NCBI RefSeq assembly: GCF_003063295.1
Contig: NZ_MUXF01000024.1
Coordinates: 1 to 53,584 of the forward strand
Direction of reading: 5' to 3'
DNA: 53,584 bases
Source of the DNA: Arcobacter lacus
GTDB lineage: Bacteria > Campylobacterota > Campylobacteria > Campylobacterales > Arcobacteraceae
The translations under genes were made by a program, and so were the position numbers. The notes beneath the pieces were generated by a model. That model had not been told where the DNA came from. It did no database searches and worked only from the letters and a program-made list of their open reading frames with translations. How positions within the stretch are numbered: position 1 is the stretch's first letter; every line of letters begins with the position of its first letter. Shown piece by piece: positions 507 through 20,036 of the stretch.

Positions 507-525
507 AATATTAAAATTTATTAAC

Positions 526-2486: not shown

Positions 2487-2571
2487 TTTTTAAATTTTTA
2501 AAGGAAAGGGAATAAATAAGTTTTTCTTCTGGTGCCTAGCAAAAAATTAAAAAGTAAAGAAGAGTTATTGA

Positions 2572-2615: not shown

Positions 2616-2649
2616 AAAAACCTTAAAATAAACAGAAAAGATTGAATCC

Positions 2650-4992: not shown

Positions 4993-6296
4993 GTGCATTA
5001 CTTGATTTTGTAAAATATAGTTATTGTAATACTTGGAGTGTACATCTACTTTTGGAAAATACTTTATTATTTTCAAATAAGTATCCATTAGTATATTTTA
5101 AAGAATTTACCAAAAAAGCAAATATAGAAACCGTACATATTAAAAATGATGAAACATATAAAATACTTGGTGTTCGTTCTTATGGTCAAGGAGTTTATTT
5201 AAATAGAGAAATTCTTGGTTCAACATTAACAATGAGAAAATACCAAAAAGCAAAAAAAAATCATCTTTTTTGGTGTAAAGTTGATACAAAAAATGGAGCT
5301 TTTGGGATTATTCCTGAAGAATTAGAAGATGGGTTAGGTTCTTCAAATATGGCTTTTGCAGAATTAGATATTGAAAAAATAGATGTAAATTATTTACAAT
5401 TATTCTTTAAATCAAAAAGATTTAATGCCTATATGGATGGACAAGTTGTAGGTACAACAAATAGAAAGTATATTAAATTTAACGATTTATTAAATGAAAT
5501 AAAAATTCCTCTTCCTAAACTTGATATTCAAAAACAAATTGTTGAAAAGATTTCTAATTCTCAGAATATTTTAGACAATTTAAAATTAGAGTATCAAAAA
5601 TATATATTACATTTTAACAATACAATTTTTAATAGAGATGTAACAAATGAAAAAAATTTTTTAGAATTTTTAGATTATTCAAAATTAAATAATTGGAGTG
5701 TTCAAAATCTTTTAGAAAATAATTTTAATTATAATAAGTCCTATTCTTTAGTAAAAATTAAAAAATTTATTAAACGAAGTAAAATTCAAACTTTAGTAGA
5801 TGATAACACAGAATATAAAAGAGTCAAAATTAAATTATATAATAAGGGTGTTTCTATAAGAGATAAAGTTTTTGGAAAAGATATAGGAACAAAAAAACAA
5901 TTTATCATTAAAGAAGGACAATTCCTTTTATCAAAAATTGATGCTAGAAATGGAGCTTTTGGAATTGCTACAAAAGAAATTGATGGAGCAATTATCACAG
6001 CTGATTTTTTTGCTTATGATATTGATGAAACAATTATTAATCCATATTTCTTAAGTTTAATTACTACAACAGATGAATTTTTAAATTTTGCAAAAAATTC
6101 AAGTACTGGAACAACAAATAGACAAAGATTAAATGAAGAGTTGTTTTTAAATGTTGAAATTCCTCTTCCATCAATAGATGAACAAAATGATTTAGTACAA
6201 CCATTATTAGATAATTTAGAAAAACAAGAAATAGAAAATATAAAATTAACTCAAGCATTAAAAGATTTTGAAAAAGAGGTGTTTCATGAAGCTTAG
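4989..6296 (+). CDS. hsdS: type I restriction-modification specificity subunit (HsdS)
   Basis: This 435-residue protein has two similar halves, each a target-recognition domain followed by a helical spacer. The half-repeat is visible as NTWSVHLLLEN...VDTKNGAFGI...GTTNRKYIKFND...IPLPKLDIQKQIV, and then as NNWSVQNLLEN...IDARNGAFGI...GTTNRQRLNEE...IPLPSIDEQNDLV. HsdS reads a split DNA target and holds the methyltransferase on it, so the complex should recognise a bipartite site. I chose the ATG at 4989, which overlaps the methyltransferase stop, over a TTG five codons earlier. Its 3' end overlaps the next gene by 11 bases. Confidence 0.92.
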   Translation: MSALLDFVKYSYCNTWSVHLLLENTLLFSNKYPLVYFKEFTKKANIETVHIKNDETYKILGVRSYGQGVYLNREILGSTLTMRKYQKAKKNHLFWCKVDTKNGAFGIIPEELEDGLGSSNMAFAELDIEKIDVNYLQLFFKSKRFNAYMDGQVVGTTNRKYIKFNDLLNEIKIPLPKLDIQKQIVEKISNSQNILDNLKLEYQKYILHFNNTIFNRDVTNEKNFLEFLDYSKLNNWSVQNLLENNFNYNKSYSLVKIKKFIKRSKIQTLVDDNTEYKRVKIKLYNKGVSIRDKVFGKDIGTKKQFIIKEGQFLLSKIDARNGAFGIATKEIDGAIITADFFAYDIDETIINPYFLSLITTTDEFLNFAKNSSTGTTNRQRLNEELFLNVEIPLPSIDEQNDLVQPLLDNLEKQEIENIKLTQALKDFEKEVFHEA

Positions 6297-8025
6297 ATAT
6301 TTAAAAGTTAAAGGGTTTAAAAATTTAACAGGGAACGATAGTTTATTTAATTTGGATTTCACGAATAAAGATAGAATTACAGTTTTGATAGGTAATAATG
6401 GAAGTGGGAAAAGTAATGTCTTAGAAGTAATAAGTGCAATATTTTCTGATTTATATAATTTAAGTAATAATAGAAAAAAAATTGATTTTGATTTTACAAT
6501 AGAATATGAAATCAACAATCATCATGTCCAATTTAGCTTCTCAGCTGAAGAACAATATAAATTCCTCAAATATAATTCTGCAGGAGTGGAGGAAGAAATT
6601 TCTATTGCAAATTTAGAACAATATTTACCATCAAATGTTTTAATGGTTTATAGTGGAGATGATGTCAAATTATTTGAGCAATATTATAAACCATTTACTA
6701 CAAAATTTAAAAAAATTGTAAAAGATGGTCAAGAAATACCAACTTTACCAAAAATGTTATATGTTGATAAATTTTTCTGGACTATTGCTTTATTATCTCT
6801 TTTAAAATCTGAATTAAATGATAATAAAGAGTTTTGTAAAAAAATTCTCAAAAATGACTTATTACAAAACATCCAAATTTTTTTTGAATTTGATCAATCA
6901 TTGGTAAAAAAACAGCTTTCTTTTTTAAATATATTATCACAAGAAAAAGATGAATTGCATTATACACTTGAATCATTTAAAGAGCTAGATTATTTACCTC
7001 ATGAAAAAGATTTATTTGTTCATTTTGCTGGTATGGTTGGGCAAAGAAAACTAATTAAGAAACTAAAAATAAACAATAATGGTATAGATACTATTCATTT
7101 GAGCGAGGGAGAAAAAAAACAGATATTAATAAGAGTTGCATTGGAAATACTAGCGGATGAAGATTCCTTGATATTATTGGATGAAGCAGATGCATTTATC
7201 CATGTTTCAAATAAGTTACAATTAAAAAATTTACTTAAACAATATACAAATAGAGAAAGTATTTTAACAACTCATTCACCAACACTTACACATTCATTTG
7301 AAGATAAGCATATAATGATGCTCAATAATGGGCAAATTGAAGATAAACAAAAACAAGAGATATTCTCACATATTACTGATGGAATTTGGAATTATCAAGA
7401 ACAATCAGTATTTTTGTCTTCGACAAAAAATATTATTTTACTTGTTGAAGGGAAACATGATAAAGTACATATTGAAGAAGCATTCAAAAGATTAAAAAAT
7501 GATTATCAAGATTTAGAATTTGATATTTTTCAAATGAACGGTGAAGCAAATATAAAACATATGATTTTAGGACTAGCAAATAACGGTGTTGATTTTGAAA
7601 CAAAAAAGATTATTGCAATTTTTGATAATGATAAAGCAGGTATAAAATCATTTGGAGAAAATTTCAAAAAAATAGAAGGTAAAACTTATAAAAAGTTAAT
7701 AGACAATGATGGAAATCTATCTAGTATATTTTTTGGTTTTCTTTTACCTAAAAAAATTTCGTGTAACTATGATTTTACTATTGAAAATATGTATGATGGT
7801 GGAAAATATAAAGATGCTCTCAAAAAAGCTTTTGAAAATCGTACTGATGATAGTTTTTTTAATGATTTTGTTGATGATATATCAAAACAAATAAAAGAAG
7901 ATGCAAAAAATTTATTAGCAGATAATTGCAAAAGTTTTGAAGATGTTGATTTTGCACATTTTAAAGAACTTTTTAAATTAATAAAAGAAGTAAAGAATGA
8001 TAGTAACAACCAAACAAATAGTTAA
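6286..8025 (+). CDS. OLD-like AAA ATPase with C-terminal TOPRIM domain
   Basis: This 579-residue protein has an SMC/RecF-like ATPase: G-N-N-G-S-G-K-S (36-43), the signature L-S-E-G-E-K-K (272-278), Walker B L-L-D299-E-A-D and H330 in THSPTL. A TOPRIM-like region follows, with E388 in LLVEGKHDK and D447-N-D449 in IAIFDNDKAG. This order is that of OLD-family nucleases, including the GajA subunit of Gabija. No GajB-type helicase is nearby, so this is not Gabija. The ATG at 6286 has a GAGG site six bases upstream and overlaps hsdS. A TTG six codons earlier is less likely. A role as ATP-gated sensor and nuclease in the operon is inferred. Confidence 0.88.
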   Translation: MKLRYLKVKGFKNLTGNDSLFNLDFTNKDRITVLIGNNGSGKSNVLEVISAIFSDLYNLSNNRKKIDFDFTIEYEINNHHVQFSFSAEEQYKFLKYNSAGVEEEISIANLEQYLPSNVLMVYSGDDVKLFEQYYKPFTTKFKKIVKDGQEIPTLPKMLYVDKFFWTIALLSLLKSELNDNKEFCKKILKNDLLQNIQIFFEFDQSLVKKQLSFLNILSQEKDELHYTLESFKELDYLPHEKDLFVHFAGMVGQRKLIKKLKINNNGIDTIHLSEGEKKQILIRVALEILADEDSLILLDEADAFIHVSNKLQLKNLLKQYTNRESILTTHSPTLTHSFEDKHIMMLNNGQIEDKQKQEIFSHITDGIWNYQEQSVFLSSTKNIILLVEGKHDKVHIEEAFKRLKNDYQDLEFDIFQMNGEANIKHMILGLANNGVDFETKKIIAIFDNDKAGIKSFGENFKKIEGKTYKKLIDNDGNLSSIFFGFLLPKKISCNYDFTIENMYDGGKYKDALKKAFENRTDDSFFNDFVDDISKQIKEDAKNLLADNCKSFEDVDFAHFKELFKLIKEVKNDSNNQTNS

Positions 8026-9811
8026 AAAGTTACCGACAAATTTAAAGTTATTGAGTATTTTAAATGAAGCAATAACAAATAGTATTCAAGCAAATGCAAC
8101 AGAAATTGAAATTTATTTTTATACTTTACCTATTGACTTATTTGGAAATACTAGAAAAGTTAAAAGTATATCAATAATTGATAATGGAGATGGATTTACA
8201 GATAAAAATATAGATTCATTCAATCATTATATGAGTGAATATAAACAAGCTTTAGGATGCAAAGGTATAGGAAGATTTACATATTTAACTATTTGTGAAA
8301 AAGTAGAATTTGAAAGCTATAACAACAATAAAAATATCAAATTTAATTTTAATTTAGAAACAGAAGAGATAAAACCAACTGTAATTGAAAATGAAACATT
8401 AGTTAAAAAAACAAAATTAAAATATATAAACATTGAAAATAGAGAAGTATCATCAGAATTAAGTGTTGAAGCAAAAGAGATAATTAATCATTTTTTATCA
8501 ATATTTAAATTTATGGTTGATGAAAATAAAAATGTTTTGATTAAATTGTATATTGATGATGTTTTAAAAGAAAGTATTGAAGCAAAAGAACATGGTTCAA
8601 ATTTCATTGATGAAGAATTTACAATAAAAGTAAGAGATATAGAAGAAACTTTTAAAGTATCTTATAAACAAAAAGGTTCTTCAATAAAAGGTTTTTATTG
8701 TGCTGATAAAAGAAGTGTAAAACAAGATGGACTGGATGTAAATTTTAGAACATCAAAAGATAAAGGATTACTATTTTTTGTTACTTCAACTTTTTTTGAT
8801 AGAACAGTAAATGATGAAAGAACAGATTTTAATATAAAAGATAATGATAAAAACTTATTTTCATTGGATTGGGATACTCTCAATAGAAAATTATTTTCAA
8901 AAATTAATAGCATTTGTAAAACATTAGGTATTGATATTGAAGAGATAAATAATAAGAATAAAAAAGAGAGTTTAAATTCAGCTCCATATTTGGCTCCATA
9001 TATTCAAAAGAGTCAAAATATGGCAACTAGTGCAGAGATAATCAAAGAAGCAAAAGAGCTATTTAATGCAGATAAAGAGTATATAAGAAATCTAAGAAAT
9101 AAAAGAAATCCTGATTATGAAGAAAGATTATATACAAGTAATCAGGCAGAATTAGCAGAATATATTTTTGATAGAGAAAAAATCATACTTGATATAAAAA
9201 AAGATTTAGAGGATGTTAATAATAAAACGAATGAAACTATCATTCATAATAAAATTATGAAAACAAAAACATCAAATGAAAACTATACTTCATATAAAGA
9301 TAATAACCTTTGGTTATTTGATGAAAGATTTATGATATATAACTATGCTTATAGTGATAAAACAATTAATGAAATTTTAGATTTAAAAGATACTGACAAA
9401 AAGGTAAGACCAGATATTTGTATTTTTACAAAAAGTAAAAATGACACAAAAGAGATAATTTTAATAGAGTTAAAAGGTAGTGATGCAACAGGTGAAAAAA
9501 ATGCTGGTGGACTAAATGAACTTAATAAATATACAAGAAAAATAAAAAACTATTTTGAAAAAAATGGAGAAGAAGTTTTAATTTGGTCATACTTAATAAC
9601 ATCTCTGAATCTAGAAACAAAACAAGAGATAGAAGATTTCCCAGGTATGAAAAAAACATATACTACAAAAGGTCAAATGTATTATTTATATAATGAAAAT
9701 TTAAATGCAATAACTCATATTTTGACTTTAGAAACAATGATTGAAGATGCAATGAGTAGAAACCAATTATTTTTGGATATTTTGAGAGGAAATTATAGTG
9801 GAGAAAATTAA
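7997..9811 (+). CDS. GHKL-family ATPase with C-terminal PD-(D/E)xK-like domain
   Basis: This 604-residue protein starts with a GHKL (Hsp90/MutL-like) ATPase. The N-box is N23-E-A-I-T-N28 with QANA, the first glycine motif is D62-N-G-D-G-F and the second is G87-C-K-G-I-G-R. Such folds close on ATP like a clamp. A middle region (about 140-330) resembles the second domain of these ATPases. The C-terminus has D473 in RPDICIF and E491-L-K493 in ILIELKGSD, the D...ExK core of a nuclease, then a conserved-looking GGLNELNKY. The gene overlaps the ATPase gene before it by 29 bases and the Mrr gene after it by one base, implying tight co-expression. I cannot name the subfamily. Confidence 0.85.
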   Translation: MIVTTKQIVKKLPTNLKLLSILNEAITNSIQANATEIEIYFYTLPIDLFGNTRKVKSISIIDNGDGFTDKNIDSFNHYMSEYKQALGCKGIGRFTYLTICEKVEFESYNNNKNIKFNFNLETEEIKPTVIENETLVKKTKLKYINIENREVSSELSVEAKEIINHFLSIFKFMVDENKNVLIKLYIDDVLKESIEAKEHGSNFIDEEFTIKVRDIEETFKVSYKQKGSSIKGFYCADKRSVKQDGLDVNFRTSKDKGLLFFVTSTFFDRTVNDERTDFNIKDNDKNLFSLDWDTLNRKLFSKINSICKTLGIDIEEINNKNKKESLNSAPYLAPYIQKSQNMATSAEIIKEAKELFNADKEYIRNLRNKRNPDYEERLYTSNQAELAEYIFDREKIILDIKKDLEDVNNKTNETIIHNKIMKTKTSNENYTSYKDNNLWLFDERFMIYNYAYSDKTINEILDLKDTDKKVRPDICIFTKSKNDTKEIILIELKGSDATGEKNAGGLNELNKYTRKIKNYFEKNGEEVLIWSYLITSLNLETKQEIEDFPGMKKTYTTKGQMYYLYNENLNAITHILTLETMIEDAMSRNQLFLDILRGNYSGEN

Positions 9812-10746
9812 TGTCAATACCAACACATGATGAAATTAGAGTACCAGCACTTAAACTTTTAAAAGAAAAAGGAATATTAAAGTTAAAAGAGTTTGAAGCA
9901 CCACTTGCAAAAGAGTTTAATTTGACAAATGAAGAATTAATAGAAATGTATGCAAGTGGAAATGGTCCAGTATTTTATGATAGAGTATCTTGGGCATTAA
10001 GTTATTTAAATATGAGTGGGTTAGTGAATAAACCAAGAAGAGGACATTATCAAGTTACAGAAGAAGGTATTAAGATGCTTTCTTCACCTGAACAAGTTAA
10101 TGAATATATAGCCCAAAAAATTCAAAATAGAAACCGTGAGAAAATTGAAAGTACTCAAAATAATACACTTGAACAAACACTTTTTACAAGTGATGTTATA
10201 AATGAACTTACTCCATCAGAAACTATTGAAATATCGTTCCAAAAAATAAAATCAAAAATCTATAATGAGATAATTGATACTATAAATAGTAAAACACCAA
10301 GAGAATTTGAAAAGCTTGTTGTAGCATTATTACAAAAAATGGGATATGGTGGTGAAATTCATAATTCTGGGGAAGTTACACAATATTCAAATGATAATGG
10401 AATAGATGGTATTATAAAAGAAGATGTATTGGGATTTGGAAGAATTTATATTCAAGCTAAAAGATATCAAAGAGATAATAAAATTGGTGAACCAGCATTA
10501 AGAGATTTTTATGGTGCATTGGGCGCAACTAATTCAAAAAAAGGTGTATTTATTACTACATCAAGTTTTCAAAAAAATGCTAAGGAATATGTAAATAGAT
10601 TAAATGGAGCAACTATTATTTTAATTGATGGTGAAGAATTAGCTAAATACATTTATGATTATTCTCTTGGTATGCAAACAGAACAAATAATAGAAATCAA
10701 AAAATTAGATAGTGATTTTTGGGATATTATGGAAGATAATATTTAA
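9811..10746 (+). CDS. Mrr-type restriction endonuclease
   Basis: This 311-residue protein has the two-domain layout of Mrr. An N-terminal winged-helix region (1-95) has the typical start IPTHDEIRVPALKLL and RPRRGHY-like PRRGHYQVTEEG. The C-terminal Mrr_cat nuclease has D199 in NGIDGII and Q215-A-K217 in IYIQAKRY, the Mrr variant of PD-(D/E)xK with Gln in place of Glu. A serine-rich tract with ITTSSFQKNAKEYV follows, also typical. E. coli Mrr cuts methylated DNA. Beside a methyltransferase gene this is notable, because self-methylation would have to be tolerated. The start is fused to the previous stop (TAATG). Confidence 0.92.
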   Translation: MSIPTHDEIRVPALKLLKEKGILKLKEFEAPLAKEFNLTNEELIEMYASGNGPVFYDRVSWALSYLNMSGLVNKPRRGHYQVTEEGIKMLSSPEQVNEYIAQKIQNRNREKIESTQNNTLEQTLFTSDVINELTPSETIEISFQKIKSKIYNEIIDTINSKTPREFEKLVVALLQKMGYGGEIHNSGEVTQYSNDNGIDGIIKEDVLGFGRIYIQAKRYQRDNKIGEPALRDFYGALGATNSKKGVFITTSSFQKNAKEYVNRLNGATIILIDGEELAKYIYDYSLGMQTEQIIEIKKLDSDFWDIMEDNI

Positions 10747-10761
10747 TAAGTAGGTTTTAAA

Positions 10762-12111
10762 ATGGCTAGATATATGTTTACAAATTCTATTATATATACT
10801 AAAGAAGAATTAGATATTAATATTAGTATATATGATAGATTTCTAAAATTTAAAGATATTTTTTTTAGAGATGGAAAATCTATTTTTGATTCAAGTATTA
10901 AACTTTTTGACAACAATGAAGTATTTGAAGAGTTTGAAAAAAGGATAATAAAGAATTATGATAGTTCAAAGAAAAATAGTGTTGAAAAATATACATTACA
11001 ATTAAAAAATTCAAGTAAGAAATTTAGACATTTTTTTTCAAATTTAATATATCTTTATAATTTACCGATTCATGAAACATATAAAGAAACAAAAATAAAT
11101 GAAATATTGACTTATTTAGACTATTCAATTGATAAAAGTTCAATAAATAAATTATTTATAGAGGATGGTATAGCAAGTTATGGGGGTTTAAAGCGTTCAA
11201 AGTATTATGATATTAATTTTTTATATTTTTTCACAAAAAAATATAAAGATAATCTTTTAATTAATCCTAATGAGCTGATAAATACGCTTAACCTTTATGA
11301 ATTAATGTCTCCTTTAACAAATGAAAAAATTGATAACAGAAATTTATTACCTTCTAGACATATGCTAAATTATCTATTTAATCCAGATGTTTATGAACCT
11401 ATTGTTAATACATCATGTAAAGAAAATATAGTTAAATATTATTTAGGAAAAGTAAATAAAAATACTATTGATGAAGATATATTATCTATAAGGAAAAATA
11501 AAACAGGTTTTGAAGTAAGTTTGTTTGATATTTGTAAAAAATCTGGAATGAGTAAAACAGCTTATGTAGTTAACTTAGATTTTAAACAGAAAAAAGATGA
11601 TTTCAAAGTTTCTTTATCTTCTAAGAATTATAAAGAAGATGATTTAGTAGATAAGTATAAGAGACAAATTGAAAATGGATTAAATGCTGAATTACTAGTT
11701 TATAATGACATAATTAAAGAAGTTGATAAAAAAGTTTTGCTTAATCAATTAATTAAATTAATAAGTTTTAATAAAATTGAAGAAATTAGCGATAAATTAG
11801 AACGATTAATTCATTACTCAAAGAACTTTGATAAATATGCTCCTTTTGATTTAATTTCTACTCAAGGTCAAGAGTTAGTATATATTGAAGTTAAAAGCAC
11901 CATAGGGAATGAAATATATTTTTCAAAATCTGAATTAGAATTTGCTTATGAGCATATTGAGAATTATTTGGTGAAAGTTGTTAAAGATGGTGAAATATAT
12001 GATTTCTCATTATATGAAGTAATTTGTGAATATTTTGAATTAAAAGAAAAAATAAATTTATGTTCAATAGATACAATCAAGGTTAAAATAGGTTTTAATC
12101 AGGAAAATTAA
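10762..12111 (+). CDS. DUF3883 domain protein with nuclease-like core
   Basis: This 449-residue protein has an N-terminal region of about 300 residues that I do not recognise, rich in Lys, Asn and Ile. Its C-terminal part resembles DUF3883: KYAPFDLIS with D363, then YIEVKST with E376-V-K378, followed by YFSKSELEFA. That core is a PD-(D/E)xK-like fold. In other bacteria and in the plant NO VEIN protein DUF3883 occurs with GHKL ATPases, and the GHKL gene here sits two genes upstream. It starts 15 bases after the Mrr stop and ends the operon. A nuclease or DNA-binding effector is inferred. Confidence 0.75.
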   Translation: MARYMFTNSIIYTKEELDINISIYDRFLKFKDIFFRDGKSIFDSSIKLFDNNEVFEEFEKRIIKNYDSSKKNSVEKYTLQLKNSSKKFRHFFSNLIYLYNLPIHETYKETKINEILTYLDYSIDKSSINKLFIEDGIASYGGLKRSKYYDINFLYFFTKKYKDNLLINPNELINTLNLYELMSPLTNEKIDNRNLLPSRHMLNYLFNPDVYEPIVNTSCKENIVKYYLGKVNKNTIDEDILSIRKNKTGFEVSLFDICKKSGMSKTAYVVNLDFKQKKDDFKVSLSSKNYKEDDLVDKYKRQIENGLNAELLVYNDIIKEVDKKVLLNQLIKLISFNKIEEISDKLERLIHYSKNFDKYAPFDLISTQGQELVYIEVKSTIGNEIYFSKSELEFAYEHIENYLVKVVKDGEIYDFSLYEVICEYFELKEKINLCSIDTIKVKIGFNQEN

Positions 12112-12189
12112 TTCTTCCGTCAGGATACCAAAGATTCACCACAATTCCATTGGCGACTTGTTCGCGTGGTGAGTCTGCGGAGTGGAGTA

Positions 12190-12218
12190 AATATAAAAGA
12201 AAGTTGACTAAATGTCAA
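12190..12218 (-). promoter_or_regulatory. consensus sigma70-like promoter, leftward
   Basis: On the minus strand TTGACA (12213-12218) and TATATT (12190-12195) are separated by exactly 17 bp. The transcript would run left through the 12133-12175 hairpin and antisense into the 3' end of the DUF3883 gene. The same bases read on the plus strand form a weak terminator, so promoter function is uncertain. Confidence 0.4.
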
Positions 12219-12226
12219 GTTTTTTT
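12204..12226 (+). terminator. possible terminator of the defence operon
   Basis: TTGAC at 12204-12208 pairs with GTCAA at 12214-12218, and seven T follow. The stem is only 5 bp. It lies about 90 bases after the DUF3883 stop. Confidence 0.4.
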
Positions 12227-12411
12227 AGATTTATGCAACGGAGGGGCGCGTCTGGTGCCTAAAAATAGCGTAAGATTTGAAAAATCTAAGCGTAAATTTT
12301 TAGTGTCTACCGACCCCAATAATTTAAATTATTCAGTTTAGATAGCTAGTTGCCTGGGGAGGCAAGTCGTAGATAAACTTGATAATGTCTGAGTTTTGTT
12401 TAAAATAAAAT

Positions 12412-12438
12412 GTTAACACTTTGATGTGTTAATTTTTT
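12412..12438 (+). terminator. terminator-like hairpin inside the structured region
   Basis: TTAACAC at 12413-12419 pairs with GTGTTAA at 12426-12432 and is followed directly by six T (12433-12438). It would end plus-strand transcripts inside the 15-bp long-range stem, before its right arm is made. Confidence 0.5.
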
Positions 12439-12542
12439 AGTTTAAATAAACACGCAGGGAATTATTGGGGTCGGGAGTTCCACTCCTGACGCGCCCTAAG
12501 GTAAGAAAGGCGATGAATAGAGCTTTTATTACCGCTATCATA

Positions 12543-12583
12543 TATTTAAAAGTATGTTTACTGGTTTAACATACTTTTAAATA
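12543..12583. terminator. strong bidirectional hairpin
   Basis: A perfect 16-bp stem (12543-12558 with 12568-12583) with a 9-base loop lies between the plus-strand RNA/operon and the convergent minus-strand gene that ends at 12589. Its position and symmetry fit termination in both directions, though neither side has a long T run. Confidence 0.6.
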
Positions 12584-12588
12584 AGGTA

Positions 12589-13254
12589 TTAAATAGGACT
12601 TTCAAATAAACTTGCCTCTTGTGCAAGTGGTTTGATTTGTCCTAGCTCATTTATATTTTTTATAAGTTCATCTATACTTATAAAATACAACTTTTGCCAT
12701 TTGGGCATAATAGATGCAAATGATTTTATTTTAGTTTTACTATCTAAAATATAAATTATTGCATCGGGATTGTCTTTTGCTACATCTTGCATAAGCTTAG
12801 TATATCTAGGAGCAGATTTTTTACTAAGCTCTATTTCTATATTTATTTTATTTCCATTACTATTGGTAAAAATAAAATCGGGTATATGATTTAATTTATC
12901 TTGGTGTGTTGATACTGTTGTTCTTTCAACTGAACCTATTTTTGAGAGATGAAATTGTGTTATTTGCTCTATGATGTTATGTTGAATAGTAGTTCTATTT
13001 AACTTAACATTTTTTACTTTTATTTCAAATTCATCTTCTAGCATTGCTTTTGTATCAGCTGTTAAAACTATTGCTCGTCTTGGTTTCATAAGATTTGTAT
13101 TCCAATATGAAATAAGGTTTTGTTTTGCAAGGGAATTAATTCTATTACGTGCTACTTGTTCATTTGTAAAAAAGGTTTTTGCTAATACTTCTATATAAGT
13201 TTTTCCATAGCTATTTATAAATTTGAATATTTCTATATCTCTATTTGTAATCAT
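12589..13254 (-). CDS. replication-relaxation-like protein (winged helix + PD-(D/E)xK-like)
   Basis: This 221-residue protein opens with a winged helix: TNRDIEIFKFINSYGKTYIEVLAKTFF, then ARNRINSLAKQNLISYW. The second half contains IPDFIFTNSNGNK and IEIELSKKS, an arrangement seen in the plasmid replication-relaxation family, where the fold resembles a nuclease. These proteins are usually next to conjugation genes. Here the coupling-protein gene lies 11 bases upstream on the same strand, so they are probably one operon. A role in binding the transfer origin, possibly in place of a known relaxase, is inference. Confidence 0.6.
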   Translation of the reverse strand: MITNRDIEIFKFINSYGKTYIEVLAKTFFTNEQVARNRINSLAKQNLISYWNTNLMKPRRAIVLTADTKAMLEDEFEIKVKNVKLNRTTIQHNIIEQITQFHLSKIGSVERTTVSTHQDKLNHIPDFIFTNSNGNKINIEIELSKKSAPRYTKLMQDVAKDNPDAIIYILDSKTKIKSFASIMPKWQKLYFISIDELIKNINELGQIKPLAQEASLFESPI

Positions 13255-13265
13255 ATTTAAGCCTT

Positions 13266-14801
13266 TTAAAGAACAAGTTCTTTTTCATCTTGATTTTGTG
13301 TATCAAGTGAAATTTCTTGTTTTAATTCAACTTTAAATGCTTTGGAAAGAGAAAGTTTTTTAATATCTACTTCTTTACTATTTAGATTATCCCAATTAAA
13401 TTTTTGTTTTACTGGTATTGGTGAAGTCTGAAATATTTTTATCTCATTTAGATTCTCTTCGATTAAAACTGCAACTTTTGCTCTGGGTAATGCTCTAAGT
13501 CTTGTAATATTCATGTGAGCTTCTTGCTGTTGTCTAATTGTAGTTTCATTACCCTTTTTACTCTTTTGAGTAACAAGTTCTAATCCGCTTAAAAGCTCAA
13601 TATATTTTAGAGTTTTATCATCGCTAGATTTATAATAGATTTTTGTTTGACAATTATCTTTTATTGATACTCTCAAGTTTTCATCTTTCATTTGAGCTTC
13701 ACTTTGATAAGCTAATATAAAATTAACTCCAAATCCTGCAACAGTTGAAAGACCTGCTGATAGAATTTGAGTCGGATAAAAACTAAGCTCATCTAGTATT
13801 GCCAAACAGTTTGTATCTTTTTTATATTTTTTTGAATATTGAATAATATCAGTAATAACAAGCTTTAAAAACTTTAAAGCTGTTTCATCTAACATATCAG
13901 ATTTTATATATAAAACTTTACCTTTTGTAAGAGAGTCTAAAATATGATAATTATTATAAATACTTACATTTTCAAACTCAGAGATTGAAAATTGTAATGA
14001 TTCTAGTATTGATAAATTTGAATAGTTTATTTCAATACTTGAAAACAAATCAGGGTTAAAATATCTCTTTGATAATGAAGCTAATTTATCAAAGTTTGGT
14101 TTGTTTTTTTCTAGCTCTTTTTGAAACTCATTGTTTGAAATTAAATCGCAGATTATATATTTTAGAAATATTGATAAGTTTTGTAAAGTTAAATCAAATT
14201 CTATTTCTAATAAAATTTTAGAGTTAAAAAAAAGATACATTACTTTTGCTAGTAATATTCTTTCGCTCTTTTTATAGAAACTTGCTCCCAATTCTGCATC
14301 ATTTTCAATCAAATTTAGCATTACAGTCATCTTTTTTGTGGCTTCTTCAACTGTATCAAGTTCACAAAAAACTGTATATCCAAAATCATTTCTCCAATTT
14401 ATAATCTGTAAATCTTGAGTTCTGTTTTGTCTTTGTAATTCTTCTAAAATCACTTGAGCTAAAAAATCATCTTCTTTTGGGTCAATTATAATCACACCTT
14501 TGTTTTTTCGTAGAGCTTCTACAACTTTTACACCTATAAAAATACCTTTCCCACTTCTTGTTGGTGCAACTATTTGAGTATGGATTGATTCATCATTATA
14601 AAGTGCTTGTTGTGTTTGATGCTCTATCCCTAAAAAGTATTTATCAGGTTTTATAAAATCAAGTGGGTTAAAGCTAATAGGTTGATGAAATAGTTCATTT
14701 TTTGCAGATGATATTGATGTAATTCCTCGACCTAATGCACTAGATTGTGCATTTTGGTCTTGAGATACTGAAGTCTCTTTTTCTTGTTTTTTGAATAGCA
14801 T
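13266..14801 (-). CDS. VirD4/TraG-type coupling protein (conjugative DNA transfer ATPase)
   Basis: This 511-residue ATPase has Walker A A-P-T-R-S-G-K-G (79-86) and Walker B in CLAILDELSF. Around them is the TraG/TraD layout: GVIIIDPKEDD, an all-alpha insertion, and AYQSEAQMKD after Walker B. Coupling proteins bring the relaxase-DNA complex to the secretion channel at the inner membrane. The protein itself has no clear N-terminal membrane helices. The adjacent gene upstream encodes a four-helix membrane protein and may supply the anchor. I chose the ATG at 14801, with GGAG upstream and one base after the previous stop, over a TTG six codons earlier. No other transfer genes are in the island. 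Confidence 0.88.
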   Translation of the reverse strand: MLFKKQEKETSVSQDQNAQSSALGRGITSISSAKNELFHQPISFNPLDFIKPDKYFLGIEHQTQQALYNDESIHTQIVAPTRSGKGIFIGVKVVEALRKNKGVIIIDPKEDDFLAQVILEELQRQNRTQDLQIINWRNDFGYTVFCELDTVEEATKKMTVMLNLIENDAELGASFYKKSERILLAKVMYLFFNSKILLEIEFDLTLQNLSIFLKYIICDLISNNEFQKELEKNKPNFDKLASLSKRYFNPDLFSSIEINYSNLSILESLQFSISEFENVSIYNNYHILDSLTKGKVLYIKSDMLDETALKFLKLVITDIIQYSKKYKKDTNCLAILDELSFYPTQILSAGLSTVAGFGVNFILAYQSEAQMKDENLRVSIKDNCQTKIYYKSSDDKTLKYIELLSGLELVTQKSKKGNETTIRQQQEAHMNITRLRALPRAKVAVLIEENLNEIKIFQTSPIPVKQKFNWDNLNSKEVDIKKLSLSKAFKVELKQEISLDTQNQDEKELVL

Positions 14802-14802
14802 A

Positions 14803-15462
14803 TTATCTCCATTTCTCAATAACTTTTAGAAAAATTAAGATAAATATTGAAAATATATTTGTATATGCAAATAATTCATTATCTGAAATAAATGAATACC
14901 ATCTTGATAGTAGATTTGATAAAAATGGAGTTCTTTCAACATCTAAATATATTTCAATAGTGTAAAAACTCATTGTAAAACTTATCATTGTTAAACCGAT
15001 TGTAATTATGAAAGTTGTTAAAATATTTAATTGTTTACCAAATATTTTATTTTTTAGATATTCAATATCTTCTTTTTCTATTTGATGGTCATTTAGAAAA
15101 TATTTCATAAAAACATTTTGAGTAAGACTAGCTTTTAAAATGAATACAGCAACTATCCCAATAATTGCATAAGTTGTATAGAATGATGCTATAAAAGTAA
15201 TCAGTCCAATTAAAAAAGCATACATAAAAAAATTGTTATCCCAGTATCTTTTAAAATATCTTGTAATTTGTGCTTTATCTTTTGAAGATGGATTCCAATC
15301 TGTTATTTGATTGGTTTTAGCTTGATTGTACTCTGAAATTATATTATCAAGAGCATCTTCTGCTCTTGATTTATAATCTTGTTTGATTTTTAGATTCTGA
15401 AGTCTTTTTTGTTGACTTGCTAGGTTTTGATTTTCCCAATTATTTTGAGTCTGATTTGACAT
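14803..15462 (-). CDS. membrane protein, likely partner of the coupling protein
   Basis: This 219-residue protein has a hydrophilic, Gln/Asn-rich N-terminus (about 75 residues) and about four membrane helices: FMYAFLIGLITFIASFYTTYAIIGIVAVFIL split as two, then LTTFIITIGLTMISFTMSFYTI, and a last one near the C-terminus. It is unrecognised as a family. Its stop is one base before the coupling-protein ATG, so translation is coupled. Since the coupling protein lacks its own helices, this may be a separated membrane domain. The promoter probably lies in the 15463-15608 spacer. Confidence 0.6.
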   Translation of the reverse strand: MSNQTQNNWENQNLASQQKRLQNLKIKQDYKSRAEDALDNIISEYNQAKTNQITDWNPSSKDKAQITRYFKRYWDNNFFMYAFLIGLITFIASFYTTYAIIGIVAVFILKASLTQNVFMKYFLNDHQIEKEDIEYLKNKIFGKQLNILTTFIITIGLTMISFTMSFYTIEIYLDVERTPFLSNLLSRWYSFISDNELFAYTNIFSIFILIFLKVIEKWR

Positions 15463-15535
15463 AATTATTCCTTTTTATGACATTAAAAGATTAAAGTCAC
15501 ATCAAAAGGAAATAAAAACTAAGATATAATTCCCA

Positions 15536-15601
15536 TTGAGGCAACTCAACGAAATATGTTCAGCTGTTTGATTATGTTTGGCGACAGACAAACAGTTGAG
15601 C
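15536..15601. other. paired inverted repeats, candidate transfer origin (oriT)
   Basis: The spacer before the membrane/coupling-protein operon holds TTGAG-gcaa-CTCAA at about 15536-15550. A 10-bp inverted repeat with one G-U pair, CAGCTGTTTG with CAAACAGTTG, follows at about 15562-15600 around an 18-base loop. Inverted repeats next to coupling-protein genes are common at oriT. No nick-site consensus can be claimed. A transcription terminator for the minus-strand gene ending at 15609 is the alternative. Confidence 0.35.
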
Positions 15602-15608
15602 AACAAGA

Positions 15609-16220
15609 CTATTTTTGTTTTTTAAAAAATTTATTTATTACAGCTTTCAATAATCCGACTTGGTCTACCTCCCTATCAAATTTTTCTATTTCATTAACTC
15701 TGATTAATTCAATATAAGATAAACAATAATACATATGAATTTCATCTTGTCTTAAAATTATATTCATAAAATCTTGAGCTTCTCTTCTTTCTTTAATAGT
15801 ATATTTGTCTTTATTTTTGTGAAGAAAAAGTGTAAATTCTTCATAAAAATGATCTTTTACTGATTCTACATTTGAGAAATATTTATTAAATTCAGGTAAT
15901 GGCATTCTATATTTAGTTTCTTCTAAAAAAACATTAAAAATCACTTTTACACTTAAACTATCTATATTTCTATAATAATCAAGAACTCTTCTTGAAATTG
16001 TTTGAAGTAAAATCCCTTGAACTTCAGTAAATTCATCAAATTTACTTGCTTCAAACTTTGAAACTTCTCCTTTTTTAAAAAACTCTTCTAATAATTCATC
16101 ATCTAAATATTTATGTACAAAATTTAAAGCTAACTTATTATCTTCTTTTTTCCATCTAGCTACTGTTTGTCTGGTAGTATCAAAAAACTTTGCAAGATTA
16201 TCTAATTTTATTTTTTTCAT
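15609..16220 (-). CDS. HTH-containing protein of unknown function
   Basis: This 203-residue protein begins with a helix-turn-helix: IKLDNLAKFFDTTRQTVARWKK, with a typical turn and recognition helix. The remainder is mostly helical and charged, with no recognisable domain. The ATG at 16220 is preceded by AAGG at a good distance; a GTG one codon earlier is possible. Its start overlaps the end of the small membrane-protein gene by 23 bases. It could regulate island genes, for example through the palindrome at 2572-2592, but nothing in the sequence proves a target. Confidence 0.6.
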   Translation of the reverse strand: MKKIKLDNLAKFFDTTRQTVARWKKEDNKLALNFVHKYLDDELLEEFFKKGEVSKFEASKFDEFTEVQGILLQTISRRVLDYYRNIDSLSVKVIFNVFLEETKYRMPLPEFNKYFSNVESVKDHFYEEFTLFLHKNKDKYTIKERREAQDFMNIILRQDEIHMYYCLSYIELIRVNEIEKFDREVDQVGLLKAVINKFFKKQK

Positions 16221-16467
16221 CACTAACCTTAGATGCTATATATTTAAAAATCATCTGATTCATTTTATTTACAGCATCCATAATTAATTTAAAAATAGTT
16301 GCTAATAAGTATATACATCCTAATAATAAAATTAATCCAAATGGTGCAAGAAAATGTATTGTAAAACAATAAAATACTGTTCCCATTACAAATATATAAA
16401 TACACAAATATACTAAAGCTTCAATAGAATTAACTCCTCCTAATTCATGTCTTAACTTTGATATCAT
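16198..16467 (-). CDS. small two-helix membrane protein
   Basis: This 89-residue protein has two hydrophobic stretches: SIEALVYLCIYIFVMGTVFYCF and LAPFGLILLLGCIYLLATIF. A basic C-terminal tail follows. It is not recognised. It overlaps the HTH gene downstream, so the two are translated from one message. Small membrane proteins of this kind occur on mobile elements as entry-exclusion or toxin-like proteins, but there is no direct sign of either here. Confidence 0.55.
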   Translation of the reverse strand: MISKLRHELGGVNSIEALVYLCIYIFVMGTVFYCFTIHFLAPFGLILLLGCIYLLATIFKLIMDAVNKMNQMIFKYIASKVSDEKNKIR

Positions 16468-16627
16468 TCAATACTCCTTGATTTTTCAGTAATTATATAT
16501 CAAATTATTACTAATGTCAATATATATAACATTAATATTAAATTTTATGAATTACCATGTAATATCATATAACTTTTTATAAGTTTAATTTAATTATTTT
16601 AGTGAGATAATTACATATAATTTTAAG

Positions 16628-16765
16628 ATAGGAGGATTTAATAAATTAGTAGTTTTTAATATTAGTTGATAATAAGGCTTGAGACGTCACCAAACAGACT
16701 CAAGCCCAAATATCCATCTCAGGATAAATAACATTATACAAGATTTATCCTTTTTATATAAGAAA
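16628..16765 (+). promoter_or_regulatory. structured leader upstream of the replication-type gene
   Basis: A strong AGGAGG-like site near 16631 has no ATG after it. GGCTTGAG then pairs with CTCAAGCC (about 16676-16706). GGATAAAT pairs with ATTTATCC (about 16722-16750) and is followed by five T, a terminator-like hairpin just before the gene. The order resembles an attenuated leader controlling a replication gene. It also makes spurious upstream TTG starts possible. Confidence 0.45.
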
Positions 16766-16774
16766 AAGGCAAAA

Positions 16775-17722
16775 ATGAGTGATAATAAACAATATTATTA
16801 TATTAAACTAAAGTCAGATTATTTTGATACAGATGAAATGATAGTCCTTGAGAGTATGCCAGATGGACATAAATATGCGAATATTTTATTGAAATTTATG
16901 CTACGAAGTTTGAGAAATGAAGGGAAACTAATGTTTAATGATAAAATCCCCTTTAACTCAATTATGCTTTCGCAAGTTACAAGACATTCAGTTGGAGAAA
17001 TTGAAAAAGCTGTTCAAATATTTGAAAGTTTAAATCTAATTGAGATACTTGATAATGGAGCTATTTACATTAATGATATTCAAAATTTCATAGGTAAATC
17101 TTCAACTGAAGCTGACCGAAAAAGAATTTATAGACACAGAATAAATGAAGATAAAAAACAATTAGGACATTTGTCTAATGAATGTCCAGACAAAAATCCA
17201 CCAGAGCTAAAGAAAGAGCTAAAATTAGAAAAAGAGCTAAAGCCAGAAAATAAAAAAGATAAGTTTAAAAGTTTAATGCAATTTAAAAATTTCTGTATTA
17301 AAAAATATAAAAGCAAAGTTATCACTAATTGTTGTCCTACTTTGTTAGTTGGAAATCAATTAAAAATAAACGAGAATGGTTTCTTAGAAAGTTATTTTGA
17401 GAGTAAAAAAATAGATATAAATCCAGAAAAAGCCAAAAAATTATGGCAGATTTTATATGAAAATCAAGAGGTTATTGGAGTAATTAAAGATGATTCTATT
17501 CAAAAAATTTTGGGGAAATTTATAAAAATTGAAATCGAAAGTAAAGTAACTAAAAAATTAGAAGAATTCATTTATCAAATTCATCATTATAAGGAAGAAG
17601 AAAACAAATATAGATTATATTTCAAAGATGTACTAACAAAACAAATTGGAAAAAGCAATAAACTTTATGATTTAGAAGATATTGAGAAATTGCCATATAT
17701 TGATATCGAGGATAAATTATGA
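16775..17722 (+). CDS. phage replisome organiser-like / replication initiation protein
   Basis: This 315-residue protein carries an N-terminal domain like phage replisome organisers: YYYIKLKSDYFDTDEMIVLESMPDGHKYANILLKFMLRSLRNEGKLMF, then IMLSQVTRHSVGEIEKAVQIFESLNLIEI. This winged-helix fold binds replication origins. The later part is basic and Glu/Lys rich and includes ADRKRIYRHRI, seen after such domains. I chose the ATG at 16775; an upstream TTG frame would run through the leader hairpins. Its stop overlaps the next start by ATGA. It may replicate the excised island. Confidence 0.75.
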   Translation: MSDNKQYYYIKLKSDYFDTDEMIVLESMPDGHKYANILLKFMLRSLRNEGKLMFNDKIPFNSIMLSQVTRHSVGEIEKAVQIFESLNLIEILDNGAIYINDIQNFIGKSSTEADRKRIYRHRINEDKKQLGHLSNECPDKNPPELKKELKLEKELKPENKKDKFKSLMQFKNFCIKKYKSKVITNCCPTLLVGNQLKINENGFLESYFESKKIDINPEKAKKLWQILYENQEVIGVIKDDSIQKILGKFIKIEIESKVTKKLEEFIYQIHHYKEEENKYRLYFKDVLTKQIGKSNKLYDLEDIEKLPYIDIEDKL

Positions 17723-17925
17723 ATAACAATGAATATTTGAATGATAAATTTTTAAAGATTGATGATGTTTTAATAATTATTCCTATAAGTAAAGCTTCTT
17801 TATATAGGCTTGCAAAAAAAGTTAATTTACTAAAACCTATAAAAATTGGTGGTTCTAGTTTTTGGAGTCAAAATAATATTAATATATATTTTGAAAACCT
17901 TAAAAAACAAAATCTTGAATTATGA
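17719..17925 (+). CDS. AlpA/excisionase-like DNA-binding protein
   Basis: This 68-residue protein has a winged-helix fold of the AlpA/HTH_17 type: FLKIDDVLIIIPISKASLYRLAKKVNLLKPIKIGGSSFWSQNNINIYFE, in which a helix-turn-helix is followed by a wing and W. AlpA-like proteins switch on integrase or bend DNA for excision. It overlaps the replication-type gene by four bases and converges on the integrase gene 21 bases away. Its role as excisionase (recombination directionality factor) is inferred from size and place. Confidence 0.75.
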   Translation: MNNNEYLNDKFLKIDDVLIIIPISKASLYRLAKKVNLLKPIKIGGSSFWSQNNINIYFENLKKQNLEL

Positions 17926-17931
17926 TAAAAA

Positions 17932-17955
17932 GGTTAGGATTATTCCCTAATCTTT
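17932..17955. terminator. weak hairpin between the AlpA-like and integrase genes
   Basis: GGTTAGG at 17932-17938 pairs with CCTAATC near 17946-17952 (one G-U), followed by TTTC. It overlaps the integrase stop and lies between two convergent genes. Confidence 0.4.
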
Positions 17956-19167
17956 CAACATATCCAACCAATCAGCATACCATTGAATTAATTCTTTTTT
18001 TTCATCAAAATATTTAAACTTTGATTCTCTATTGTAAGATGCTTTTACCCTATTTTTCTCTTTATGTGCTAAACAAGCTTCAATAATATCAGACTGAAAA
18101 CCATGTTCTTTATATAGTTCATGAGCTATTGTTGAAAACATACTTCTAAATCCATGAAAGCAATGTCTATTTTGATAACCTAATTTATTTAAAGTATCAG
18201 CTAAAGTTGCACCTGCAACACCTCTGTCACTCTTTTGTGGAGATGGGAATACATATTTGCTTCTTTGTCTTGTAAAAGGTTCGATTTCTTTAATAAGTTT
18301 AATTGCTTGTTTTGGTAAGGGACAAACAAAATCAACATTCATTTTCATTTTTTCTTTTGGTATTGCCCAATAACCTTTTTCTAAATCTAAATCATCCCAA
18401 CACATCAATCTTATATTCTCACTTCTAACAAATACATAAGGAATTAATTTAAAAATATAAATTGTACTAATATGACTTCTAAATCTATCCTCGAGGCTAT
18501 AAATATCTTTTAATAGTTGCTTTATATCTTCTTTTTCAGTTAATGCAGGAAGATGTGTTTCCTTACTTTTTAGCAACGTTGTTTTTTTATCAATATCAAC
18601 TATTATATTATGTTCAATATAGCCATTTGTTACTGCAAATTGATATATATTAAACAAAAGAGATAAAATTCTTAATCCAGTTTCTATTCTTCCTTTTTTC
18701 TGGATATTTAAAATAAGTTCAATAAAGTCTTGTCTTTGAATATCTTTTATTGCAATATTACCAATTCTATCAGTGATATTTTTCAGTATTCTTTTATTTG
18801 TAATATATGTATTCTGACTACTATTTAATTTTCTAATTTCTAACCATTTATTTATTACAAAATTTAGACTAATCTCTTCTGATATTTTATTAAGTTTTTT
18901 TTCTGAAATAGGATTAATATTATTATTAAGTAATTTTCTTGCTTCTAAAGTTTTATCCCTAGCTTCTTTTAAAGAAGTTTTTGGATAGACACCTAAACTC
19001 ATAGATAATCTCTTTCCACCATATCTAAAATCAAGTCGAAAAAATTTTGAACCATTTTTTCTTATCACAAAATATAACCCATCACCATCACTTAAATTGT
19101 AATCTTTATCTTTTATTTCTGCTTTTTTTAATTCTAATTCTGTAAGTTTTTTAGTTGTTCTTTTCAT
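17947..19167 (-). CDS. tyrosine site-specific integrase, P4 type
   Basis: This 406-residue protein has the DUF4102 N-terminal domain of P4-like integrases: NLSDGDGLYFVIRKNGSKFFRLDFRYGGKR and MSLGVYPKTSLKEARDK. The catalytic domain has R248 in VFVRSENI, H338-G-F-R341, H368 in LAHKEKN and the nucleophile Y378 in ASYNRE. All catalytic residues are present, so the enzyme looks active. It joins the excised circle to the att site in the YciI-gene 3' end, which starts about 155 bases from its own start codon. GTACTGT motifs in that gap may let it repress itself. P4 integrases mostly use tRNA genes; a protein-gene 3' end is a less usual target. Confidence 0.95.
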   Translation of the reverse strand: MKRTTKKLTELELKKAEIKDKDYNLSDGDGLYFVIRKNGSKFFRLDFRYGGKRLSMSLGVYPKTSLKEARDKTLEARKLLNNNINPISEKKLNKISEEISLNFVINKWLEIRKLNSSQNTYITNKRILKNITDRIGNIAIKDIQRQDFIELILNIQKKGRIETGLRILSLLFNIYQFAVTNGYIEHNIIVDIDKKTTLLKSKETHLPALTEKEDIKQLLKDIYSLEDRFRSHISTIYIFKLIPYVFVRSENIRLMCWDDLDLEKGYWAIPKEKMKMNVDFVCPLPKQAIKLIKEIEPFTRQRSKYVFPSPQKSDRGVAGATLADTLNKLGYQNRHCFHGFRSMFSTIAHELYKEHGFQSDIIEACLAHKEKNRVKASYNRESKFKYFDEKKELIQWYADWLDMLKD

Positions 19168-19171
19168 AATG

Positions 19172-19218
19172 ACAGTACACCAATTTTTGAAATTTTTAAG
19201 TACTGTTAATTGTACTGT
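19172..19218. repeat. putative integrase arm-type sites, right end
   Basis: GTACTGT occurs at 19200-19206 and 19212-19218 in direct orientation, and inverted at 19172-19178 beside the integrase start. The pair mirrors 624-642 in spacing and direction. These sites overlap the region expected to hold the integrase promoter. Confidence 0.5.
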
Positions 19219-19322
19219 ATAAGAACTGAGTTTTAAGTAAATTATTAGATTTTTAGCGAGACAAACTGAAACTTATCAAAGTCCAGTTTATCTGTTATTA
19301 TAAGATATTTTGAGATTTAATG

Positions 19323-19610
19323 TTATTGTTTAGGAAGTAGCTTCACAGGAACCATCTGGAACTCATCCATATTCCAAACATTATTTTTTACATAAGGTTC
19401 ATTTAAAAGCCATTCATCAATCTCTTCATCATTTTCAAAATCAACAAATAAAGTTGATCCAACCATTATATCATCTTCTATTAAAGCACCAGCATCTATT
19501 ATTTTACCTTCGCTCATTAATTTTCTAGCACCTTCTATATGTGCTTCTCTTGATTCAAGTCTTCTTTCTAGTGCACCATCATTATCATAAGCTATTACTA
19601 AATATTGCAT
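19323..19610 (-). CDS. YciI-family protein (island integration target)
   Basis: This 95-residue protein has the YCII ferredoxin-like fold: MQYLVIAYDNDGALERRLESREAHIEGARKLMSEGKIIDAGALIEDD, then STLFVDFENDEEIDEWLLNEPYVK. A His-Asp pair (H24 and a later Asp) is typical of the family, whose role is poorly known. The C-terminus FQMVPVKLLPKQ lies inside the att repeat, so the final codons were donated by the island, while the original tail is stranded at 526-564. The protein is intact apart from N-to-Q at the last residue. Before integration the gene would have ended next to the trxA terminator. Confidence 0.88.
   Translation of the reverse strand: MQYLVIAYDNDGALERRLESREAHIEGARKLMSEGKIIDAGALIEDDIMVGSTLFVDFENDEEIDEWLLNEPYVKNNVWNMDEFQMVPVKLLPKQ
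19333..19361. repeat. attachment-site repeat, right (att core within the YciI gene)
   Basis: Direct copy of 536-564 with two mismatches, embedded in the last codons of the YciI-family gene. The island-borne bases from here to 19323 supply a working 3' end and stop codon. Confidence 0.85.
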
Positions 19611-19652
19611 AAATATCCTTTTTTATTTGATTGTGTTATTTTATCACAAAGT

Positions 19653-20036
19653 TTATAAAGTGGTTGCAAGTAAAAAAAACAAAGGATATGCAATTGCATT
19701 AAAATATCTAATTATAGGGAACATTTTAATATTATAAGGAACAATATCTTCCAATTCTTTGTTTTTTGATAATCCTTTCATTAAAGAAAGTTTCATACTA
19801 ATATCAAAAAATTTTAATATTAGTATAGAACTCATAAAAAAGCCAAAATTATTTAAATAAAAAGACAAAAAAATTGTATAAAAGAATGAAGGATGAAGGA
19901 TCAAATATAAAAAAATATTTTTTTTGAATATTTCAAAATTATTATCTAATAATCCATATAAGGAATCAGATTTTTGCCAATTTGTTTCAAATAATTCAAC
20001 AGCAATAAAGATAAGAAATAAGTATAAATATTCCAT
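19653..20036 (-). CDS. small membrane protein of unknown function
   Basis: This 127-residue protein has about four hydrophobic segments, beginning MEYLYLFLIFIAVELFETNW and ending PLFFLLATTL. There is no recognisable family motif. It follows rpoC on the same strand after a terminator and lies just before the YciI gene, so it is part of the chromosomal side rather than the island. A conserved hypothetical is the safest label. Confidence 0.55.
   Translation of the reverse strand: MEYLYLFLIFIAVELFETNWQKSDSLYGLLDNNFEIFKKNIFLYLILHPSFFYTIFLSFYLNNFGFFMSSILILKFFDISMKLSLMKGLSKNKELEDIVPYNIKMFPIIRYFNAIAYPLFFLLATTL

Follow-up and report, generated by a model that had tools for sequence, protein, structure and literature searches.

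A conserved folded noncoding element adjoins mobC-type relaxase genes in Arcobacter, Sulfurimonas relatives and a Sulfuricurvum plasmid

The window, by which we mean the whole stretch of 53,584 nucleotides of Arcobacter lacus DNA analysed here, carries an integrated element of about 18.8 kb with 17-bp direct repeats at both ends (Table 1). It contains a defence operon (2650-12111) for a methyltransferase, a specificity subunit, an OLD/PtuA-like ATPase/TOPRIM protein, an HSP90-like ATPase, Mrr and NOV_C, and this operon is cargo of the integrated element. Directly 3' of its last gene lies the folded noncoding region that is the subject of this work, and beyond that come genes for a relaxase, a coupling protein, a replication organiser and an integrase. 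No gene for a type IV secretion channel was seen among the scanned open reading frames of at least 90 amino acids of the integrated element, which we therefore read as an integrative mobilizable element. The same integrated element contains an abiF RNA, a known defence RNA (RF03085, 44.1 bits; 1582-1618, minus strand), just upstream of an AbiD/Abi_2 gene (697-1599).

Table 1. Features of the integrated element and of the folded element inside it; paired cells and double-change pairs are explained in the text.
Feature	Position in window	Strand	Remarks
Left 17-bp direct repeat ACAGGAACCATCTGGAA	548-564	.	likely attachment site
Whole structured element	12112-12592	+	about 480 nt; + is the favoured folding strand
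H1, 5' hairpin	12132-12176	+	10/11 bp, 12132-12142 with 12166-12176; variable part
H2, A-tract/T-tract hairpin	12190-12232	+	86.8% of cells paired; 4 double-change pairs
ACGGAG motif	12238-12243	+	directly 5' of P1
P1, 5' arm	12243-12252	+	pairs with 12488-12497, 8/8 loci
H3 hairpin	12257-12306	+	internal loop AATAGCGT / AGCGTAAATT
P2, 5' arm	12310-12324	+	15-bp stem
H4, long hairpin	12328-12386	+	conserved internal loops, GGGG apical loop; 99.2% of cells paired; 5 double-change pairs
H5, long A/T-rich hairpin	12389-12457	+	92.2% of cells paired; 7 double-change pairs
P2, 3' arm	12460-12474	+	
H6, small hairpin GGGAG..CTCC	12473-12487	+	between P2 and P1; 0 double-change pairs
P1, 3' arm	12488-12497	+	partner of 12243-12252
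H7 hairpin	12500-12533	+	double change in 5/12 pairs
H8, A/T-rich hairpin	12543-12583	+	mobC end; 16/16 bp; 97.4% of cells paired; 2 double-change pairs
mobC-type relaxase gene (MobC family replication-relaxation protein)	12589-13254	-	convergent with the element
Type IV coupling-protein-like gene (TraG/VirD4/TrwB families)	13266-14819	-	MobB position
Phage-type replication-organiser gene	16679-17722		
Tyrosine integrase	17947-19167	-	
Right 17-bp direct repeat	19345-19361	.	inside the 3' end of the minus-strand YCII-domain gene 19323-19610

The plus strand of 12112-12592 reaches a minimum free energy of -170 kcal/mol, while 100 shuffles that preserved dinucleotides averaged -108.7 +/- 5.3 and none was as low (z -11.5), which bears out the preliminary description of the region as heavily structured; the minus strand alone also folds far beyond chance (z -9.4). 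A scan of positions 1-20000 in 200-nt windows (396 window-and-strand tests, 20 shuffles each) placed six of its eight top windows within 12301-12700 and the other two at 12601-12800, on both strands, inside mobC. The folded structure extends to 12583, beyond the end at 12540 that had been given for it. The rise in GC noted earlier is real, in that no equal-length window of 1-20000 (0/390) matches 12112-12540 and a neighbouring gene has 20.9%, but the value is 38.2% rather than about half, with a peak of 60% in one 50-base window. The earlier remark that no family seemed to fit agrees with a search of Rfam 15: at the gathering threshold the element is unmatched, the only matches in the window being five tRNAs and the abiF RNA, and seven related loci (L039, L013, L044, L029, L028, L012 and L031) give no match at that threshold either, while the five matches that a permissive search of 11900-12700 returns, with E 2.2 to 8.8 and scores far short of gathering, look like chance. 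Among the matches listed in searches of the literature on relaxase and mobilization RNAs, Arcobacter mobilizable elements, the Sulfuricurvum kujiense plasmid and Arcobacter/Sulfurimonas small RNAs, the element is undescribed. One study (PMC6429828) screened the GC-rich intergenic regions of Arcobacter sp. L for structured RNAs and reports novel motifs, and part of the present motif may be listed among those in its supplement.

The structure is present at eight loci, namely the window, G005, G105, L026, G284, L028, G036 and pSULKU04, the carriers being Arcobacter and Sulfurimonas relatives and a 3.4-kb Sulfuricurvum plasmid. A DNA search of 150 related genomes returned G005 (92% identity), G105 (75% over 277 bases) and a 39-base match in G036; a search guided by MobC led to L026 and L028, both of them Sulfurimonas MAG contigs, and once more to G036 (as L027), a genome of the window's own family; and an order sample added G284 and G440, the latter being pSULKU04. 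When positions 12000-20000 of the window were compared by blastn, the element was the noncoding stretch matched in all six other matching fold-bearing loci, the match in G036 again covering only 39 bases of it and pSULKU04 having none. MobC relatives occur in 7/398 genomes of the order sample, and a profile search of 397 genomes of the phylum sample returned the same seven; the structure adjoins mobC in 6/7 of these MobC-bearing genomes. The exception, G067, has a MobC relative and a coupling gene and the large structure is absent; a short stretch of inverted repeats upstream of the coupling gene (L031 4910-5030) could be a minimal oriT.

Model R1, which covers the helix P2 domain, gave full-length matches in 4/228 genomes of the Sulfurimonadaceae-side family and 2/104 of the window's family, all of them at mobC; two of these, G566 and G528, are L026 and L028 by contig position. 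G036, which stood outside the training set of R1, matches it locally with 25.2 bits (E 2.7e-4), a score that is weak on its own because opposite-strand matches to H5 reach 19-30 bits; the 40-genome searches ran with stricter filters that lose weak matches, and the R1 family search did not report G036 despite its local match. The homology of pSULKU04 is based on shared P1, P2, H3 and ACGGAG together with a BLAST match of part of H3 to G284 (E 7.3e-4), which alone is weak because a search with the pSULKU04 copy gave matches as strong in G450 and G614 (E 8.7e-4 and 9.3e-4), in other parts of the query, that we took as chance. The plasmid scores 59 bits with model R2, to which it belonged, so that this score is not independent; outside the known loci R2 finds 15 matches of 22.8-27.4 bits, the best of which (G176) looks coding.

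Searches further afield were negative. Plasmid and phage DNA searched with the window copy gave nothing, as did plasmid DNA searched with the G284 copy, and the pSULKU04 copy found only pSULKU04 itself in plasmid DNA. In viral contigs MobC relatives were found in none of 149 candidate stretches, the H4 pattern occurred in no contig, and a looser H3 pattern occurred in 57, none of which R2 supported (0 at E 0.01). Single-hairpin BLAST matches in G079, G081, G094, G110 and G111 were dropped, being coding-like or unrelated hairpins by eye, and tblastn with 14 window proteins found nothing at the G081, G094, G110 and G111 loci. On a Vibrio MOBC plasmid, neither a fold scan nor inspection by eye of 7.2 kb around mobC recognised a homologous fold, though folded noncoding stretches exist there (best z -8.2); the CloDF13 record was left out, as its gene table lacks mobB/mobC.

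The architecture is that of a closed junction, in which P1 encloses H3, the long-range helix P2 (carrying H4 and H5) and H6, with H2 before the junction and H7 and H8 after it. The preliminary description had listed perfect stems of 9, 15 and 10 bp, and all three lie where it put them: 9/9 pairs of P1 (GGGCGCGTC/GACGCGCCC, 12244-12252 with 12488-12496), 15/15 of P2 (CCGACCCCAATAATT/AATTATTGGGGTCGG, 12310-12324 with 12460-12474) and 10/11 of H1, a helix that we left out of the pair counts; its GGGG-loop hairpin (TTGCCTGGGGAGGCAA, 12350-12365) was likewise recovered, within H4. In the window P1 includes one G-U pair, and across the eight loci its arms lie 186-266 nt apart and more than one pair type is seen at 4/10 positions. 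P2 holds in all eight as well, with 10-13 Watson-Crick pairs of 13, or with 15/15. The hairpins are less uniform: H3 recurs in G005, G284, L028 and pSULKU04, is divergent in G036 and is absent in G105 and L026, and the primary sequence of H2 varies among lineages while its pairing is largely retained. ACGGAG stands before P1 in the window, G005, G105, G284, L028 and pSULKU04, and ACGGAA in L026; no motif of this type was seen there in G036, where the contents of P2 are, in the predicted fold, largely swapped for other hairpins. The G036 copy (L013 4820-5600, minus strand) is also larger and has several A/T-tract hairpins with TGACNNAANGTCA three times, of which the window has one. As for the two competing folds suggested earlier, the alternative hairpin (12318-12333) does form in the window (7/7 pairs), but across six sequences it is only partly kept, at 35/42 cells against 41/42 for P2 and 35/36 for the helix that takes up its other half, and a two-fold switch would be a weakly supported reading of these sequences.

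Further evidence for the fold comes from compensatory change, the covariance among homologues by which the preliminary description had proposed to judge it. Alignment A3 holds six homologues and 128 pairs in eight helices, and 94.6% of its cells are standard pairs, although these cells overcount events because window/G005 and G105/L026 are near pairs (92-94% identical), which leaves about four lineages. In 32/128 pairs both sides change with pairing kept, whereas shuffles average 15.1 (0/500 as high) and sliding by 1-3 columns leaves 2-7. Further pair types in A3 are less clear (61 against 55.2 expected from shuffles; 21/500 as high). H3, counted apart in five sequences, has double changes in 3/21 pairs (5/500 shuffles as high), and at two positions a G-U pair is retained in 6/6 sequences. 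The element is thus structured, conserved and under selection for a fixed fold, best on the plus strand. A decayed insertion element, which had been raised as an explanation that would overturn a new RNA, was rejected because frames starting inside 12112-12592 have at most 63 codons and because the pairing is kept by compensation.

The constant neighbour of this element is a mobC-type (MOBC) relaxase gene, which adjoins it in all eight loci. The MobC of the window matches the NCBIfam MobC_subf family with E 2.4e-12 and 46.6 bits, below the 200-bit cutoff, and pSULKU04, which carries a MobC homologue, is typed MOBC by MOB-suite. A structural model of MobC (pLDDT 88.4) contains a winged helix resembling that of MarR (77 residues at rmsd 1.9, Z 10.3) and a nuclease-like half, a candidate PD-(D/E)XK domain, in which P125 D126, E140, E142 and K146 are invariant in seven sequences; a Foldseek search with the whole model is headed by endonucleases, though as weak matches (best E 1.5e-3, rmsd about 16). 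In seven loci the element and mobC converge, with the element on the downstream side, but in pSULKU04 it lies upstream and points the same way as the gene, so that it must be an independent unit rather than the tail or leader of an mRNA. It might be thought that an ordinary cluster of terminators or repeats between convergent genes would suffice, as the operon and mobC converge here and several hairpins have A and T tracts; however, the arms of P1 and P2 are about 135-270 nt apart and change in a compensatory manner, a terminator scan finds no site in 12112-12592, and the genes of pSULKU04 are not convergent, which makes this reading highly improbable. The element is best explained as the noncoding core, conserved among its carriers, of a mobilization module of the MOBC type in an integrative mobilizable element, and we consider it very probable that the region has a working role in such a module. 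The mobC gene itself is without a single continuous frame in G105 (L012 6942-7603) and L028 (7001-7664), and the element is still kept there.

The genes on the side away from mobC are anything but constant. A tie between the fold and the defence operon had been proposed, and the position of the element directly after the operon's last gene would agree with a noncoding RNA belonging to that operon, as would the other kinds of defence gene that flank it elsewhere; yet by tblastn the operon is found in only two of the eight loci (the window and G005), the best that its genes find in L028 being a 23%-identical methyltransferase stretch, and at the G005 locus, where the operon's final two genes are missing, the element is intact and has the same starting point. 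The ardA gene occupies this side in G105, L026 and L028. Beyond it come an HKD+Snf2-type defence gene in G105 (L012 8909-12103) and, in L028 (9006-11718), an unrelated type I pair of methyltransferase and specificity subunit, while the contig of L026 stops a short way past ardA; in G036 and G284 this side carries different genes. Defence or anti-defence genes thus stand on this side in 5/8 loci, differing in kind and in direction, and none is annotated in pSULKU04. We therefore read the side away from mobC as what looks like a cargo site collecting defence genes, and a defence-operon RNA as scarcely credible. Of the earlier proposal of a new noncoding RNA beside a defence operon there remain a large structured element, its compensatory changes and the lack of an Rfam match, and the operon tie is not supported. 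The operon itself shows a mixed divergence between the window and G005 (L011 10025-16001), with the methyltransferase (361 residues compared) and the HSP90-like gene 92-97% identical; the ATPase has only 46% identity, the specificity subunit has diverged and G005 has no copy there of the final two genes, so that the operon looks like the product of cassette exchange.

Which strand folds bears on what the fold does. With RNA parameters, allowing G-U pairs in the consensus gains the plus strand 34 pairs and 31 kcal/mol and the minus strand 6 pairs and 1 kcal/mol; under DNA parameters the two strands gain 15 and 1 kcal/mol, respectively. Shuffle z-scores (60 shuffles; four sequences with 400-nt ends) are stronger on the plus strand in 6/7 sequences with RNA parameters and also in 6/7 with DNA parameters, the exceptions being L028 and L026. 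In a strand-neutral set of helices there are 24 G-U and 3 A-C cells, with 73 other mismatched cells, or by position 9 against 3 (p = 0.15); a count of 64 G-U against 6 A-C cells on the plus-derived structure was set aside as biased, because that structure itself derives from the plus strand. The plus strand is thus probably the one that folds, and such a fold would suit an RNA and equally the single DNA strand moved in conjugation.

We tentatively favour an RNA. The plus strand would be transcribed rightwards into a noncoding RNA of some 480 nt. By analogy with the part that sgm-sRNA plays for the integrative mobilizable element SGI1, this RNA might act together with MobC and the coupling protein to start or target conjugal transfer, at a site next to the transfer origin or overlapping it. 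The compensatory pairs, P1 and P2 in 8/8 loci, the linkage to mobC, the preference for one strand and the precedent of sgm-sRNA count in favour of this reading. On the other side stand the fold of the minus strand, the plus preference with DNA parameters, the broken mobC frames of G105 and L028, G067 without the structure, the small number of lineages, about four, and the slight excess by position of G-U over A-C in the strand-neutral helices. The promoter too is unconserved: sigma-70-like promoters (at least 9/12) occur on the plus strand in 3/8 sequences and on the minus strand in 5/8, in differing places, and none is conserved. In addition, T runs after H2 and after several G036 hairpins could end a transcript early. 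That RNA rather than single-stranded DNA is the active form is the least certain part of the proposal.

Less probable than the RNA, but a serious rival to it, is that the fold is DNA. A mobilizable element or MOBC module must carry an oriT in cis, and this is the module's conserved noncoding part, placed in cis and adjacent to the relaxase gene; in pSULKU04, which has 3421 bp and three annotated genes, most of the gap next to mobC (1817-2642) is taken up by the fold. The region would then be the oriT, and the transferred plus strand would fold as a single strand for recognition, nicking or rejoining by MobC, a reading with which the strand preference under DNA parameters and the unconserved promoter agree. 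Known oriTs, however, are mostly short inverted repeats, and a junction rich in G-U pairs whose closing arms are separated by some 190-270 nt is more RNA-like. The pMET1 report (PMC2262945) gives the order oriT-mobB-mobC, which fits an oriT in such modules, but in that CloDF13-like order the oriT is upstream of mobB, whereas the element is downstream of mobC in 7/8 loci. In CloDF13/pMET1-type modules, as in the present one, a mobile element encodes both a relaxase of the MobC family and a coupling protein to go with it; the relaxase there is only distantly related, and the noncoding part differs in position and order.

A further DNA reading would make the fold a single-stranded promoter or priming site (Frpo/ssi type) from which anti-restriction genes are expressed early in the recipient. 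Both ardA and Frpo are found in leading regions (PMC11541004), and the element resembles such sites as a large single-strand fold in mobile DNA, sometimes beside ardA: ardA is in the right direction in G105, L026 and L028, as is another open reading frame in G036 and G284, and an 11-of-12 sigma-70-like promoter lies on the minus strand inside H2 (12218-12190). Yet this promoter in the TGAC hairpin is shared only with G005 and, weakly (9/12), with G036, that is 3/8 loci, so that the element has no conserved -35/-10 in the stem; moreover, a downstream gene in the promoter's direction exists in 5/8, none being listed in the window, G005 and pSULKU04. As a general function it is very unlikely, because the promoter is unconserved and, at three of the eight loci, no gene is listed that it could express.

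Among the closest known systems is SGI1: the element, like sgm-sRNA, lies in the mobilization module of an integrative mobilizable element with an atypical relaxase gene adjacent (here in 8/8 loci). PMC9299015 describes sgm-sRNA as an RNA that is made and needed for transfer, with a core between the relaxase gene and the oriT and a terminator-like sequence near its promoter, and the element here is a candidate for such an RNA; the relaxase of SGI1 is the tyrosine-recombinase-like MpsA/MpsB, the one here MOBC. According to the same paper, MobC of CloDF13 seems to work without the covalent link to DNA that is usual for relaxases, and the authors knew of no earlier report of an sRNA in a conjugation complex. 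We speculate, although we consider it unlikely, that the module contains the first RNA-containing relaxosome, in which the 480-nt RNA would bind the nuclease-type MobC and hold or align the oriT strand for cutting, delivery and rejoining. Large structured RNAs of mobile elements are represented in Rfam by GOLLD, ROOL and HEARO, which the element resembles in size and multi-helix architecture, and from which it differs in having no Rfam match at the gathering threshold in the window and seven related loci. How transfer starts and finishes with MOBC relaxases is poorly understood, and a conserved fold that accompanies them is a concrete, testable part of the process as well as a candidate for the second RNA needed for mobilization, after sgm-sRNA. 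The natural 3.4-kb pSULKU04, carried by the water bacterium Sulfuricurvum kujiense DSM 16994, can serve as a minimal test system. Its copy (L039 2015-2125, plus strand) has repeated GCGAACGGAGG-type motifs before P1, each 3' of a hairpin, and one of these is followed by a 15-codon ATG frame, as read by eye.
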